A stretch of DNA of 39,540 bases from an uncultured Oscillospiraceae bacterium. GTDB taxonomy: Bacteria; Bacillota; Clostridia; Oscillospirales; Oscillospiraceae. The notes under the pieces are model-generated. The model was not told the DNA's origin. It ran no database searches and saw only the letters and a program-made list of their open reading frames with translations. Positions within the stretch are counted from its first letter, which is position 1. The number at the start of each line of letters is the position of its first letter. Positions 27,011-33,343 of the stretch are shown here, piece by piece. The translations under genes and the position numbers were made by a program. Location of the stretch: assembly GCA_904420435.1 (NCBI GenBank), contig CAJFVK010000006.1, forward strand, positions 1 through 39,540, read 5' to 3'.

Positions 27011-27451
27011 ATGAAGGTGAACAACTACATATCCATGGAATTTCTGAGCCGCAGCGTCAACGAGGGCTTCGCCCGCATGGCAGTAGCGGCCTTTGCCGCC
27101 CAGCTGGACCCCACCCTGGAGGAGCTGGGGGACATCAAGACTGCGGTCAGCGAGGCGGTGACCAACGCCACCGTCCACGCCTACCCCGACACCCTGGGCA
27201 AGATCGTTTTGAAGGGGCGGATCCTGGACGACAACATCCTGGAGATCACCGTGCGGGACTGGGGCCGGGGCATCCCGGACGTGGAGAAGGCCCGCCAGCC
27301 CCTCTATACCACCGGCGGGGAGGAGCGCAGCGGCATGGGCTTCACCATTATGGAGAGCTTTATGGACCAGCTGCGGGTGGTGTCTCATGAGGGGCAGGGG
27401 ACAAAGGTGGTCATGCGCCGGCGGATCGCCCGCCGGAACGGGGGACGATGA
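27011..27451 (+). CDS. spoIIAB: Anti-sigma F factor SpoIIAB (HATPase kinase)
   Basis: AVSEAVTNATVHAYPD N-box, VRDWGRGIPDVEKARQPLYTT, GMGFTIMESFMD; AGGAGG RBS. Confidence 0.95.
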   Translation: MKVNNYISMEFLSRSVNEGFARMAVAAFAAQLDPTLEELGDIKTAVSEAVTNATVHAYPDTLGKIVLKGRILDDNILEITVRDWGRGIPDVEKARQPLYTTGGEERSGMGFTIMESFMDQLRVVSHEGQGTKVVMRRRIARRNGGR

Positions 27452-28152
27452 ACACCGCTCTGCTGGAGGCGGCCCGCCAGGGGGACCAGGAGGCCTGCGA
27501 CCAGGTGATCCGGGAGAACACGGGGCTGATCTGGAGCATTGTCCGGCGCTACTACGGCCGGGGAGCGGAGCCGGAGGACCTCTACCAGCTGGGCTGCGTG
27601 GGGTTCCTCAAGGCCATCCGGGGCTTCGACCCCTCCTACGGCACCCAGTTTTCCACCTACGCCGTGCCCAAGATCGCCGGGGAGATCCGGCGCTTCCTCC
27701 GGGACGATGGGAGCATCAAGGTGGGCCGGGGCCTCCGGGAGCAGGCTATGGTGATCCTCAGCGCCCGGGAGCGGCTCTTACACAGCCTGGGCCGGGAGCC
27801 CACCCTCTCCGAGCTCTCAGGGGAAACCGGCTACACGGCGGAAGAGATCGCCTCCGCGGAGCTGGCCTGCGCCCAGCCGGAGAGCCTCCAACAGGAGAAG
27901 GGGGACGGGCTGACGCTGGAGTCCACCCTCCGCAGCGGCGACGGGGAGGAGGCCATGGTGGAAAAAATCGCCCTCCGCAGCGCCATCGAGGCCCTGCCGG
28001 AGAGCGAAAAGAAGACAATCCTGCTGCGGTTCTTCAAGGGCCTGACCCAGGCCCAGGCCGCCCGGATCCTGAAGGTGTCCCAGGTGCAGGTATCCCGGCT
28101 GGAGCGCCGGGCTCTGGAGCGCCTGCGCCAGGCGTTTGCGCCGCCGGAGTGA
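27448..28152 (+). CDS. sigF: RNA polymerase sporulation sigma factor F (SpoIIAC)
   Basis: LYQLGCVGFLKAIRGFDPSYGTQFSTYAVPKIAGEIRRFLRDDG region 2 and C-terminal LTQAQAARILKVSQVQVSRLERRAL region 4; ATGA overlap with spoIIAB. Confidence 0.96.
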   Translation: MNTALLEAARQGDQEACDQVIRENTGLIWSIVRRYYGRGAEPEDLYQLGCVGFLKAIRGFDPSYGTQFSTYAVPKIAGEIRRFLRDDGSIKVGRGLREQAMVILSARERLLHSLGREPTLSELSGETGYTAEEIASAELACAQPESLQQEKGDGLTLESTLRSGDGEEAMVEKIALRSAIEALPESEKKTILLRFFKGLTQAQAARILKVSQVQVSRLERRALERLRQAFAPPE

Positions 28153-28899: not shown

Positions 28900-30747
28900 T
28901 TAAGCCCCCTTCAGTGTCAGCTCCGCCTTGAACAGGTCCCCGTCCACGGCGATGGAGAACGTGCCGCCCATGAGCTCCATCAGGCTCCGGGCGATGCTCA
29001 GACCCAGCCCGCTGCCCTCGGTGTGCCGGGAGGCGTCTCCCCGGACAAAGCGCTCCATCAACTCCTCGGCGCTGATGTTCAGGGAATCCCGGGAGATGTT
29101 TTTCACCGTCAGGCGCACCCGGTCCCCGGCCCTCTCCAGATCCAGGTACACCCGGCTGCCGGACAGGGCGTACTTGCACACGTTGCTCAGCAGATTGTCC
29201 AGCACCCGCCAGAGCAGACGCCCGTCGGCCATGGCCGCCAGGTCCTCCCCAGGGGCGGTGACGATCACCTCCAGCTTCCCGGCGGCCAGCCGCTGGTCGT
29301 AGTCCCCCATGGCCTGGCGGACGATCTCGTTGACTACAATGGGCTGGAGGTGGACGGTGATGTTCCCCGTGGAGGCCTTGCTGGCCTCCACCAGGTCCTC
29401 CGTCAGCTTCTTCAGCCGCCGGGACTGCCGGTCCAGCACCGCCACATAGTCCGCGGCGGTGTCCGGCAGGTCCTCCTTTGCCAGCAGGTCCACATAGTTG
29501 ATGATGGAGGTCAGAGGGGTCTTGATGTCGTGGGACACGTTGGTGATGAGCTCCGTCTTCAGCCGCTCCGACCGCATCCGCTGGTCCACCGCCCGGCTCA
29601 TGCCCAAGCCGATGGCATTGAGATGCTCCCCGTGGGTCCTCAGATCCCAGAACATCCGGGAGGTGTCCACCTGGGCTTCCAGGTCCCCCTCCGCCAGGGC
29701 CTTCCCGGTATCCTTCAGCTTCTGCAGCTGCCAGGAGAGGAGGGCGGCGCCGGCTGCCAGGGCGGCGTCCATCAGGAGGGCCAGCAGGTAGTAGGAGCCC
29801 GAGTAGGAAACGCCGCCCAGATAGATGAGGGCTGTCTGGGCCAGCAGGACCAGGCACACCAGGGCGATGGCCCGCCAGGTGAGGGGGAGGATGCGGACAA
29901 AGTCCACCAGGGCCCGGCCGCAGCGGCGGAGGACCCGGCAGGCCCAGCGGAGCGCCCGCCAGCAGATGGTGTTCTCCCAGAAGCGGCCCAGCTTCAGCCG
30001 GGTGGCCACCGTCAGCAGCAGGGCCAGGGCCAGAACAGCCAGGGCCAGGCAGGTGACGGAGAGGAAGACCAGCTGGATGATGTAGATGCCGGAAATGTTC
30101 CGCCACATGGCCAGGAGCAGATAGGCCAGCACCCACTCCCCCAGCAGGTACAGGTCCAGGGGAATCCGGTCCTGCACATTGGCAGTAATGCCCTCCGCGC
30201 CCCGGCGGTGTCCGGCGGCGCAGAGGAGGTACACCAGACAGACCAGCATCAGCACGGCGGAGAGGACAGCCGCCGGGAGCAGGACGTTCCGGAGGGGATA
30301 GAACAGGGAGAAGAAGAGATGCTCCCCGTAAAAGGCGCTGTCCGGATCGTCAAAATCCAGCACATAGACGGTGACCCGGTAGGACCCCGCCTCCAGGGCG
30401 CGGCCGGGGTCGGAATCGGGGATGACGACCTCCGTTTCTGACACGGCGTCGTAGGAGGCGGGGACGGCGCCGCTCTGCCGGAGGACGGCGCCCGGATGGC
30501 CGGGGTCCTCCACCAGCACCACCACATTCTCCGACGGCTCGCCGCCGTAGAGGTAGTTGACCGCCTCGGCGTCCCGGAGGGAGGTGAAGGCATCCGTATC
30601 GGTAAAGTCCAGGGCTCTGCCGGTGTAGTACCCCATGTCAAAGGAGATGGCAAAGGCCAGGGCGGAGATGGCGGACAGGGCCAGGAACAGGATCGTGAGG
30701 AAGCAGGCCGCCGCCTTCAGCGGCAAGCTCCGGCGCAGGTCAGACAC
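28900..30747 (-). CDS. Sensor histidine kinase (VanS-like architecture)
   Basis: Multi-TM N-terminus; LITNVSHDIKTPLTSIINYVDLL H-box; SGLGLSIARSLMELMGG. GTG start after GGAAGGAGG. Confidence 0.92.
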   Translation of the reverse strand: MSDLRRSLPLKAAACFLTILFLALSAISALAFAISFDMGYYTGRALDFTDTDAFTSLRDAEAVNYLYGGEPSENVVVLVEDPGHPGAVLRQSGAVPASYDAVSETEVVIPDSDPGRALEAGSYRVTVYVLDFDDPDSAFYGEHLFFSLFYPLRNVLLPAAVLSAVLMLVCLVYLLCAAGHRRGAEGITANVQDRIPLDLYLLGEWVLAYLLLAMWRNISGIYIIQLVFLSVTCLALAVLALALLLTVATRLKLGRFWENTICWRALRWACRVLRRCGRALVDFVRILPLTWRAIALVCLVLLAQTALIYLGGVSYSGSYYLLALLMDAALAAGAALLSWQLQKLKDTGKALAEGDLEAQVDTSRMFWDLRTHGEHLNAIGLGMSRAVDQRMRSERLKTELITNVSHDIKTPLTSIINYVDLLAKEDLPDTAADYVAVLDRQSRRLKKLTEDLVEASKASTGNITVHLQPIVVNEIVRQAMGDYDQRLAAGKLEVIVTAPGEDLAAMADGRLLWRVLDNLLSNVCKYALSGSRVYLDLERAGDRVRLTVKNISRDSLNISAEELMERFVRGDASRHTEGSGLGLSIARSLMELMGGTFSIAVDGDLFKAELTLKGA

Positions 30748-30826
30748 GGCGCAGCCTCCTTCCCGCCGCCAGGGCCAGGGCCCCTCCGGCGGCTGCCAGC
30801 AGAACAAGGCATACTAATTTCTTCAT
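30740..30826 (-). CDS. Micro-ORF: 28-aa single-TM peptide MKKLVCLVLLAAAGGALALAAGRRLRRV
   Basis: ATG preceded by TGGAGG (RBS), hydrophobic core with basic C-terminus, stop TGA overlaps the histidine-kinase GTG start region; absent from the ORF track because of its size. Confidence 0.55.
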   Translation of the reverse strand: MKKLVCLVLLAAAGGALALAAGRRLRRV

Positions 30827-30857: not shown

Positions 30858-31550
30858 TCACCCTTTTGCCTCCATCTTGTACCCCAGGCCCCAGACCACC
30901 TTCAGGTACCGGGGCTCCGAGGGGTTGATCTCGATCTTCTCCCGCAGGTGCCGGATGTGGACGGCCACGGCGCTCTCGGAGCCGGTGGCGCTCTCGTTCC
31001 ACACCTGCTCGTAGATCTGGGCCGAGGAGTAGACCCGGCCCGGGTGGGCCATCAGCAGGCGGAGGATATTGTACTCCATGGGCGTCAGGCTCACCGGCTC
31101 CCCGTCCACGGTGACGGACTTGGCCTCGTCGTCCAGCGCAACGCCGCCGATTACCAGGCGGGAGGGCTTTGCCTCCATGCCGCCCAGGGTGGTGTACCGG
31201 CGCAGCTGGGAGCGGACCCTGGCCAGGACCTCCACCGGGTCAAAGGGCTTGGTGATGTAGTCGTCGGCCCCCACGTTGAGCCCCAGGACCTTGTCCGTGC
31301 TCTCGCCCTTGGCGGTGAGCAGGATGATGGGGATGTTGCTGCTCTCCCGCAGTTTGGCGGTGGCGGCGATGCCGTCCAGCTCCGGCATCATGATGTCCAT
31401 CAAAATGAGATGGATCTCCTGGGTCCGCACCACCTCCAGGGCCTCCCGGCCGGTGTAGGCGGTAAAGAGGGTGTAGCCCTCGGCGGAGAGATAGATCTTC
31501 AGGGCGGAAACGATGTCCCGCTCGTCGTCGCAGATCAGAATGTTGGCCAT
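30858..31550 (-). CDS. OmpR/VanR-family response regulator
   Basis: MANILICDDERDIVSALKIYL, LILMDIMMPELDGI, LLTAKGESTDKVLGLNVGADDYITKPF, winged-helix YLKVVWGLGYKME. Confidence 0.95.
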   Translation of the reverse strand: MANILICDDERDIVSALKIYLSAEGYTLFTAYTGREALEVVRTQEIHLILMDIMMPELDGIAATAKLRESSNIPIILLTAKGESTDKVLGLNVGADDYITKPFDPVEVLARVRSQLRRYTTLGGMEAKPSRLVIGGVALDDEAKSVTVDGEPVSLTPMEYNILRLLMAHPGRVYSSAQIYEQVWNESATGSESAVAVHIRHLREKIEINPSEPRYLKVVWGLGYKMEAKG

Positions 31551-31576
31551 ATGGGGTGTCCCACCTTTCAAGAGGT

Positions 31577-31634
31577 ATTGTAGCACACCCCCTTTTAAGA
31601 AAAAAGAGGGCGGGAGATTAAGAAATCTTTAAGA
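31577..31634 (-). promoter_or_regulatory. Response-regulator promoter with upstream OmpR-type direct repeat
   Basis: Minus-strand TACAAT (31582-31577), poor -35 (CTTTTT at 31605-31600); TCTTAA-N5-TCTTAA at 31634-31618, 12 bp upstream of the -35. Confidence 0.6.
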
Positions 31635-31662
31635 CGGCCGGGCGGGGAACCCCTCCGGGCAA

Positions 31663-31719
31663 TCTTAAGAGAATCTTAGGAAAAATCCCCCTTGGATCTG
31701 AAACTTTTTCTGCTATCCT
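31663..31719 (+). promoter_or_regulatory. Divergent promoter with OmpR-type direct repeat
   Basis: TCTTAA-N5-TCTTAG (31663-31679), 12-bp gap, TTGGAT (31692-31697), 16-bp spacer, TATCCT (31714-31719). Confidence 0.55.
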
Positions 31720-31725
31720 GTCCTC

Positions 31726-31821
31726 AGCCACCTTTCAAAAGAAGCGAAAAAGGAGGGGATCGCAGATAGAAGAAACAGGGAGCGCCCCCGCGTCCACCCT
31801 TCGGACGCGGGGGCGCTTTTT
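31726..31821 (+). ncRNA. Candidate ~95-nt sRNA with intrinsic terminator
   Basis: Promoter at 31692-31719; no start codon suitably placed after AGGAGGGG; ends in a 15-bp GC-rich hairpin AGCGCCCCCGCGTCC/GGACGCGGGGGCGCT plus T tract. Confidence 0.45.
31781..31821 (+). terminator. Intrinsic terminator
   Basis: AGCGCCCCCGCGTCC accctTC GGACGCGGGGGCGCTTTTT; T tract is on the plus strand. Confidence 0.85.
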
Positions 31822-31835
31822 GACGCTTCAGCCCC

Positions 31836-32321
31836 TCAGGGGCTCATCCGGGCCTTGGCGCTGTACTGGTCCGCCCGGAGGAGAAAGACCGTCACATCCC
31901 GGGCCATCTCCTCCGTGACGGCAATCCTCCGCCCGGTCTGGTGGGCCAGGATGGCCTCCAGGGCGGCGGCCCTGTCCCGGGGGTCCTCCGGGAATTCCAC
32001 CCGGCCCCGGCCGGTGACGGACTGGTAGTCGCAGCTGTAGGCGCAGGGCGGCCCGCCCTGGCCGGTGAGGCGGAGCAGCCGGTCCATCTCAAAGGCGGCC
32101 AGAGGATTTTCCCGCAGGGCGGAGAGCTTCCGCCCCCGGCCGGCGCAGTGGAAGCACAGGATCAGATTCTCCCCCTCCCACAGGGCACCGAAGCTCATGG
32201 GGACGATGTAGGGGCCCTCCCGGTCCCACACCGCCAGGCGGCAGACCCGGCAGGCCGCCACGATGGCCTGGATAGCCACCAGATCCGTCACCTGCCGCTC
32301 CGAGCGGCGCATGGGGATCAT
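31836..32321 (-). CDS. Pyridoxamine 5'-phosphate oxidase (FMN-binding split barrel) family protein
   Basis: MIPMRRSERQVTD...CRVCRLAVWDREGPYIVPMSFGALWEGENLILCFHCAGRGRKLSAL; ATGA overlap with the upstream gene. Confidence 0.85.
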   Translation of the reverse strand: MIPMRRSERQVTDLVAIQAIVAACRVCRLAVWDREGPYIVPMSFGALWEGENLILCFHCAGRGRKLSALRENPLAAFEMDRLLRLTGQGGPPCAYSCDYQSVTGRGRVEFPEDPRDRAAALEAILAHQTGRRIAVTEEMARDVTVFLLRADQYSAKARMSP

Positions 32322-33343
32322 CGCAGAGCCTCCAGCCGGTCCAGCAGGGCGTCCACCTCCGCCTCCTGGGTGGTCCAGGAGGTGACAAACCGAACGCACA
32401 GCCGCCCGTCCGCCAGAAGCTCAATGGTTTCAAAGGCGCAGTCCTCCGCCAGGGCGGCGGACTGGGCGGCGGTCAGGACGGGAAAGAGCTGGTTGGAGGG
32501 GGAGTCGTAGGCCAGGGGATACCCCAGGCGGACCAGGCCCTCCCGCAGGCGCAGGGCCATCCGGTTGGCGTGCCGGGCCAGCTCCAGATAGAGGCCGTCC
32601 TTCAAAATGGCGCCGAACTGGACCCCCAGCAGCCGTCCCTTGGCCAGGATGGCCCCCTGCTGCTTCATGGCCCGCCGGAAGTTGGGGTAGAGGGACGGGT
32701 TGGTCAGCACCACCGCCTCGCCGAAGAGCAGGCCGTTTTTGGTGCCGCCGATGGTGAAGGCGTCGCACAGGGCGGCGTAGTCGGCAAAGCCCAGGTCGGA
32801 GCCCGGGGCGGTGATGGCGGAGCCCAGGCGGGCGCCGTCGCAGTAGAGCAGGAGCCCCAGTTCCCGGCAGCAGGCGTGGATGGCCGAGAGTTCCCGGCGG
32901 GTGTAGACCGTGCCCACCTCGGTGGTGTTGGAGAGATAGACCAGCCGGGGCAGGGGGGTGTACTCCTCGCCGCACTGGGAGACCGCCTGGGCCACCATCT
33001 GGGCGGTGAGCTTCCCGTCCGGGGCGGGGAGGGTGAGGATCTTGTGGCCGTTGTGCTCGATGGCTCCGGCCTCGTGGCCGGCGATGTGGCCTGTGGCGGC
33101 GGCGATCACGGCCTCGTAGGGCCGCAGCAGGGCGCCGATCACCAGCTTGTTGGCCTGGGTGCCCCCGGCCACAAAGTGCACCTGGGCCTCGGGGGCGCCG
33201 CACAGGCGGCGGATGGTATCCGCCGCGGCGGCACAGAAGCTGTCCGAGCCATAGCCGGGGGTTTTGAGCAGATTCGTTTCCGTCAGGGCCTCCAGCACCG
33301 CCGGATGGGCCCCCTCGGAGTAGTCGTTTCGAAAATTGAGCAT
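32318..33343 (-). CDS. Low-specificity threonine aldolase (beta-eliminating lyase family)
   Basis: MLNFRNDYSEGAHPAVLEAL; HIAGHEAGAIEHNGHKIL; YCDGARLGSAI; CDAFTIGGTKNGLLFGEAVV PLP-lysine region. Confidence 0.92.
   Translation of the reverse strand: MLNFRNDYSEGAHPAVLEALTETNLLKTPGYGSDSFCAAAADTIRRLCGAPEAQVHFVAGGTQANKLVIGALLRPYEAVIAAATGHIAGHEAGAIEHNGHKILTLPAPDGKLTAQMVAQAVSQCGEEYTPLPRLVYLSNTTEVGTVYTRRELSAIHACCRELGLLLYCDGARLGSAITAPGSDLGFADYAALCDAFTIGGTKNGLLFGEAVVLTNPSLYPNFRRAMKQQGAILAKGRLLGVQFGAILKDGLYLELARHANRMALRLREGLVRLGYPLAYDSPSNQLFPVLTAAQSAALAEDCAFETIELLADGRLCVRFVTSWTTQEAEVDALLDRLEALR

Follow-up and report, generated by a model that had tools for sequence, protein, structure and literature searches.

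A two-component response regulator gene in an uncultured Oscillospiraceae bacterium is preceded by an intergenic region in which similar direct repeats face two divergent promoters. What does the regulator do at these promoters, and what would the second of them transcribe? The window referred to below is the whole 39,540-nucleotide stretch of DNA that was analyzed (contig CAJFVK010000006.1); related genomes are given by handles such as G004. The reading favored here, with a probability of roughly 0.85, is that a divergent promoter pair is under the control of the adjacent VanR-like regulator through three-half-site operators, and that the divergent coding sequence has been deleted, leaving what is most likely a relic. 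(Binding, activation, transcription and relic status are all things that we infer from sequence comparison.)

The regulator and its kinase

The regulator belongs to the OmpR/PhoB family by its receiver domain (Pfam Response_reg, 8e-30) and its C-terminal winged helix (Trans_reg_C, 5e-26). Its best NCBIfam model is VanR, at 250.7 bits against a cut-off of 350, and the kinase scores 132.9 bits with VanS against a cut-off of 400; because both scores fall short, the regulator is called VanR-like. The kinase gene adjoins the regulator gene in relatives too.

28900..30750, minus strand: cognate membrane sensor histidine kinase (HisKA and HATPase_c), same operon direction, start codon approximate
30858..31550, minus strand: VanR-like OmpR/PhoB-family response regulator, 230 amino acids (Pfam Response_reg and Trans_reg_C)
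31561..31569, minus strand: Shine-Dalgarno region of the regulator mRNA, GAAAGGTGG, conserved in relatives

Downstream of the two-component operon, and convergent with it, lies a gene for a SigF/SigG-like sporulation sigma factor (27448-28152, plus strand; best NCBIfam model SigF, 248 bits, below cut-off).

Two operators, each facing its own promoter

An earlier note on this DNA had described a repeat pair upstream of each promoter, TCTTAAAGATTTCTTAA at 31634-31618 on the minus strand and TCTTAAGAGAATCTTAG at 31663-31679 on the plus strand. Both are correct to the base, as are the promoter boxes (ATTGTA, that is, TACAAT on the minus strand, at 31577-31582; TTGGAT at 31692-31697, 16 bp from TATCCT at 31714-31719), and the 12-bp distances separating each repeat from its -35 position also hold (31617-31606 and 31680-31691, with a 17-bp spacer on the regulator side). 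Alignment of congener upstream regions indicates that each promoter comprises an extended -10 preceded by three TTAAG half-sites, spaced 11 and then 23 bp. The TTAAGA at 31595-31600, rightly placed but taken for a loose additional copy, is thus the third half-site of a triple. On both sides the third half-site overlaps or abuts the -35 region; its distance to the -10 (18 versus 17) differs by 1 bp between the two sides.

31577..31585, minus strand: extended -10 of the regulator promoter, TGCTACAAT (TGNTANNNT is conserved in congeners)
31595..31600, minus strand: third half-site TCTTAA, in the -35 region, 23 bp nearer the promoter than the pair; spacing conserved in genus and family
31618..31634, minus strand: operator half-sites 1 and 2 of the regulator promoter, TCTTAA-N5-TCTTAA; unique in the genome, conserved
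31663..31679, plus strand: operator half-sites 1 and 2 of the divergent promoter, TCTTAA-N5-TCTTAG; aligns with GT2 and vanY promoters of relatives
31697..31702, plus strand: degenerate third half-site TCTGAA of the divergent promoter; CTTAA in G001, G003, G005, G009 and G010
31711..31719, plus strand: extended -10 of the divergent promoter, TGCTATCCT, from sequence and alignment with relatives

The divergent third half-site, TCTGAA, which the earlier note had passed over, is one base removed from the TCTTAA of G005. The -35 boxes are weak, as had been said, and TTGGAT may not be a genuine -35 at all, given that each -10 is of the extended type (the box is only partly conserved in relatives). 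The symmetry of the region comes down to two ordinary operators, each facing its own promoter; no special shared device is involved. A genome-wide search for exact TCTTAA-N5-TCTTAR, which had been suggested as a check, finds two matches in 2,419,629 bases, both in this intergenic region. Within the window, three matches with at most two mismatches are observed where 0.49 are expected. No further strong operator site was found outside the intergenic region of this genome (a draft assembly, about 93% complete), two one-mismatch matches lying elsewhere.

The lost divergent gene

The same divergent promoter serves a 396-residue membrane GT2 glycosyltransferase (PF13641) in G004, G006 and G007, and a VanY-type D,D-carboxypeptidase (PF02557) in G005. 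In G001, G010, G003 and G009 the GT2 promoter is set apart from the regulator, by roughly 0.7-1.2 kb, and has a three-half-site operator to itself. PNPOx-like and aldolase-like genes are common to the window, G004, G005 and G007, which implies that these loci correspond. No coding sequence separates promoter from terminator in the window, where the terminator comes immediately after the leader and a Shine-Dalgarno-like AAGGAGGGG; the earlier note does not remark on this. An overlooked divergent gene is ruled out: no plus-strand open reading frame of at least 20 codons' worth of amino acids starts between 31726 and the terminator T-run.

31750..31758, plus strand: orphan Shine-Dalgarno-like AAGGAGGGG, not followed by any usable start codon (sequence; open reading frame check)
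31781..31821, plus strand: terminator hairpin with T-run, separating the divergent transcript from the convergent PNPOx gene (terminator and fold analysis; alignment)
31836..32399, minus strand: convergent pyridoxamine-phosphate-oxidase-like (PNPOx) gene, synteny anchor common to G004, G005 and G007
32318..33343, minus strand: threonine-aldolase-like gene, second synteny anchor

Relocation of GT2 within the genome is also rejected: the only GT2 found elsewhere in it is a 35% identical paralogue without an upstream operator, and similar paralogues exist in G005, G006, G007 and G008. A search of the same genome for VanY gives distant VanY-domain matches only. By this comparison the genome appears to have lost both GT2 and VanY while keeping promoter, leader, orphan Shine-Dalgarno sequence and terminator. 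In a regulator-plus-kinase tree rooted on other genera, G005 and G008 branch outside the window genome and the rest, so that GT2 was probably lost at least twice among congeners; a VanY gene took over the divergent promoter in G005, and G008 lost the promoter too.

In G002, an integrase-like gene adjoins the regulator promoter (about 240-1270 bp upstream of the regulator) and GT2 lies on a different contig, which is what insertion of a mobile element into the divergent region might leave.

The leader RNA: relic or regulator

With the target coding sequence deleted, the divergent promoter would yield at most an RNA of ~96 nt, ending at the terminator that is shared with the convergent gene.

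31726..31821, plus strand: predicted ~96-nt non-coding transcript from a putative start site, made up of what remains of the lost gene's leader and the terminator
31728..31738, plus strand: CCACCTTTCAA, perfect complement of the regulator Shine-Dalgarno region (31561-31571)

The predicted fold of this RNA (-47.7 kcal/mol, z -4.8) is mostly terminator stem, and its assignment to a known RNA family is rejected, since nothing in the window matches Rfam at gathering score. Its 5' end contains CCACCUUUCAA, complementary to the regulator Shine-Dalgarno sequence over 11 perfectly paired nucleotides. What generates this complementarity is a same-strand repeat, CCACCTTTC, in the divergent and regulator leaders (31728-31738 and 31561-31571; about 20 nt in G005), which makes divergent transcripts complementary over the regulator Shine-Dalgarno in lineage-specific variants (CCACC in some, CCTGCC in G005, a GTCCG extension in G004 and G007).

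The divergent transcript might on these grounds be a functional, csRNA-like small RNA, activated by the regulator, whose CCACCUUUCAA end pairs with the regulator Shine-Dalgarno (the candidate pairing is CCACCUUUC with GAAAGGUGG) and exerts negative feedback on translation. Its size is like that of csRNAs, which have anti-Shine-Dalgarno stretches and TTTAAG-N5-TTTAAG sites (PMC3091779), the pairing is retained with lineage-specific sequences, and an inverted promoter duplication would not yield this orientation. The duplexes of G004, G005, G006 and G007 are matched by only 0-2 of 500 shuffles, that is, they beat nearly all of them, but those of the window, G001, G003, G009 and G010 are matched by 15-63 of 500 (38 in the window), and G002 has no complementarity. 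The divergent gene's own Shine-Dalgarno, moreover, is a possible partner for any anti-Shine-Dalgarno stretch, which is a simpler reason for the stretch to be retained. The two operator core substitutions, CTTAG and CTGAA, are what decay would be expected to leave; falling in two of the three divergent half-sites, they make a decaying relic the likelier interpretation of the gene-less promoter. A functional small RNA is accordingly rated improbable, and slightly more so the wider proposal that divergent leaders have been selected for complementarity and that an RNA born from the lost gene's leader was kept for feedback in trans on the regulator.

In the GT2 leaders of G003 and G009, pairing is possible between a 5' AUACC-A-CCUU and AAGG-A-GGUAU within one mRNA (fold z-scores are not significant); such pairing would hide GT2's own Shine-Dalgarno.

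Conservation of the array

If the repeats serve this regulator, the earlier note had reasoned, close relatives with the same two-component system should keep them. They do: scored as three half-sites at spacings 11 and 23 upstream of the regulator gene (maximum 15/15), the array is perfect in the window and in nine of nine congeneric regulator genes scanned. Conservation declines with regulator identity, fading below about 60%: scores of at least 13/15 are found in 9/16 relatives at 65-80% regulator identity, 6/20 at 55-65%, 0/13 at 45-55% and 1/50 below 45%. Since the spacing rule was derived from the genus, the figures from outside it constitute an independent test.

A composite pattern that includes the extended -10 has 13 matches in 11 genus genomes and no control matches; 11 are at regulator promoters, one in each genome, and the other two at the GT2 promoters of G003 and G009. 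Across 401 family genomes, CTTAA-N6-CTTAA-N18-CTTAA has about 70 matches, against 2 for reversed-pattern controls. Among 70 distinct family sites, 42 directly precede a regulator orthologue, 10 a membrane GT2 glycosyltransferase and 18 other or unclear genes (by inspection only, these include lipoproteins, a family-4-like glycosyltransferase and a PAP2-like membrane protein). A -10-like TANNNT starts 11-12 nt past the third half-site in 60 of the 70. The array also fronts GT2 in genomes where GT2 does not adjoin the regulator promoter. Other regulators may share the TTAAG half-site.

Some family genomes have two or three promoters of the three-half-site type, fronting secreted lipoproteins or glycosyltransferases, which suggests a larger envelope regulon there.

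Relation to known systems

An architectural parallel exists with enterococcal VanR and VanRG promoters, which likewise combine an OmpR/PhoB-type regulator, direct repeats (one to three), a non-conserved -35 and envelope genes including vanY. At the promoter of a vanY-led resistance operon, VanRG binds three direct repeats that precede a -35 lacking conservation, and VanR and VanRB bind their own promoters (PMC4405338). The VanR half-site, (T/C)CGTANGAAA(T/A)T, is unlike TTAAG, however, and the regulator described here scores below the VanR cut-off. Unlike the arrangement of van operons, no van resistance genes lie beside the operon among the neighbors examined, and the targets in relatives are GT2 or VanY alone.

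The half-site has its parallel elsewhere. A literature search for TCTTAA repeats gave only RR_1586 of C. difficile, an OmpR-family regulator that binds 11-bp direct repeats with core TTAAG and consensus DRTTAAGNWWWDRTTAAGNWWW (PMC6222199). Regulator family, repeat period and core are the same here, but for RR_1586 two half-sites are described, with mostly repression and a different predicted regulon. Streptococcal CiaRH also offers a direct repeat of the TTAAG type, CiaR binding NTTAAG-N5-TTTAAG and controlling a regulon that includes small RNAs with anti-Shine-Dalgarno stretches (PMC3091779). The CiaR repeat reads as TTTAAG when followed toward the promoter, and 10 nt separate its end from the -10, whereas the array described here has the opposite orientation and a third half-site; unlike the csRNAs, the predicted divergent RNA looks like what is left of a coding transcript. 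Architecture and half-site are thus both familiar, and the lost target is the unexpected part.

Probable control by the regulator

The array tracks regulator identity and precedes regulator orthologues and GT2 genes, so that the comparison lends good support to control of both promoters by the regulator. It is also strong evidence for the array as this regulator's operator and for autoregulation as an ancestral trait. Very likely the repeats are real binding sites from which the stress-sensing regulator switches on its own gene and the neighboring envelope sugar-transferase gene (the latter itself lost here). Most likely, phosphorylated regulator would bind the TTAAG half-sites head to tail and recruit RNA polymerase, thereby raising its own operon as well as the divergent gene (a membrane GT2 glycosyltransferase in relatives, except for one species with a VanY-type D,D-carboxypeptidase).

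The earlier note had the regulator activating its own operon and the divergent transcript. Dependence on the regulator is supported by conservation and by the independent GT2 arrays; the direction, activation rather than repression, we infer from weak -35 elements and precedent. Repression of both promoters from operators reaching into the -35 region is considered unlikely. It would suit the overlap of the third half-site with that region, and RR_1586, whose site is a DRTTAAG direct repeat, appears to repress (PMC6222199). A poor -35 combined with an extended -10 is, on the other hand, typical of activated promoters, and the first two half-sites lie upstream of the -35 as in activated promoters of the VanR family (PMC4405338). 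A chance origin of the repeats, as AT-rich stretches of a genome rich in GC, could appeal to the shortness of the half-sites and to the AT-rich islands in which promoters usually sit. It is rejected as scarcely credible in view of the repeats' genome-wide uniqueness, the count in the window, the fixed 11/23 family spacing and the excess of family matches over controls.

Significance

Activation by the VanR-like regulator through an operator of three TTAAG half-sites, spaced 11 and 23 bp and followed by an extended -10, would amount to an operator rule for a widespread and apparently uncharacterized two-component system of Clostridia. The rule points to the membrane GT2 glycosyltransferase as the conserved target, and with it regulons can be predicted from raw genomes in organisms that do not lend themselves to manipulation. 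In the gene-less promoter, for its part, one would have a natural example of a target lost while its regulator survives, and in its orphaned leader a candidate source of a small RNA.
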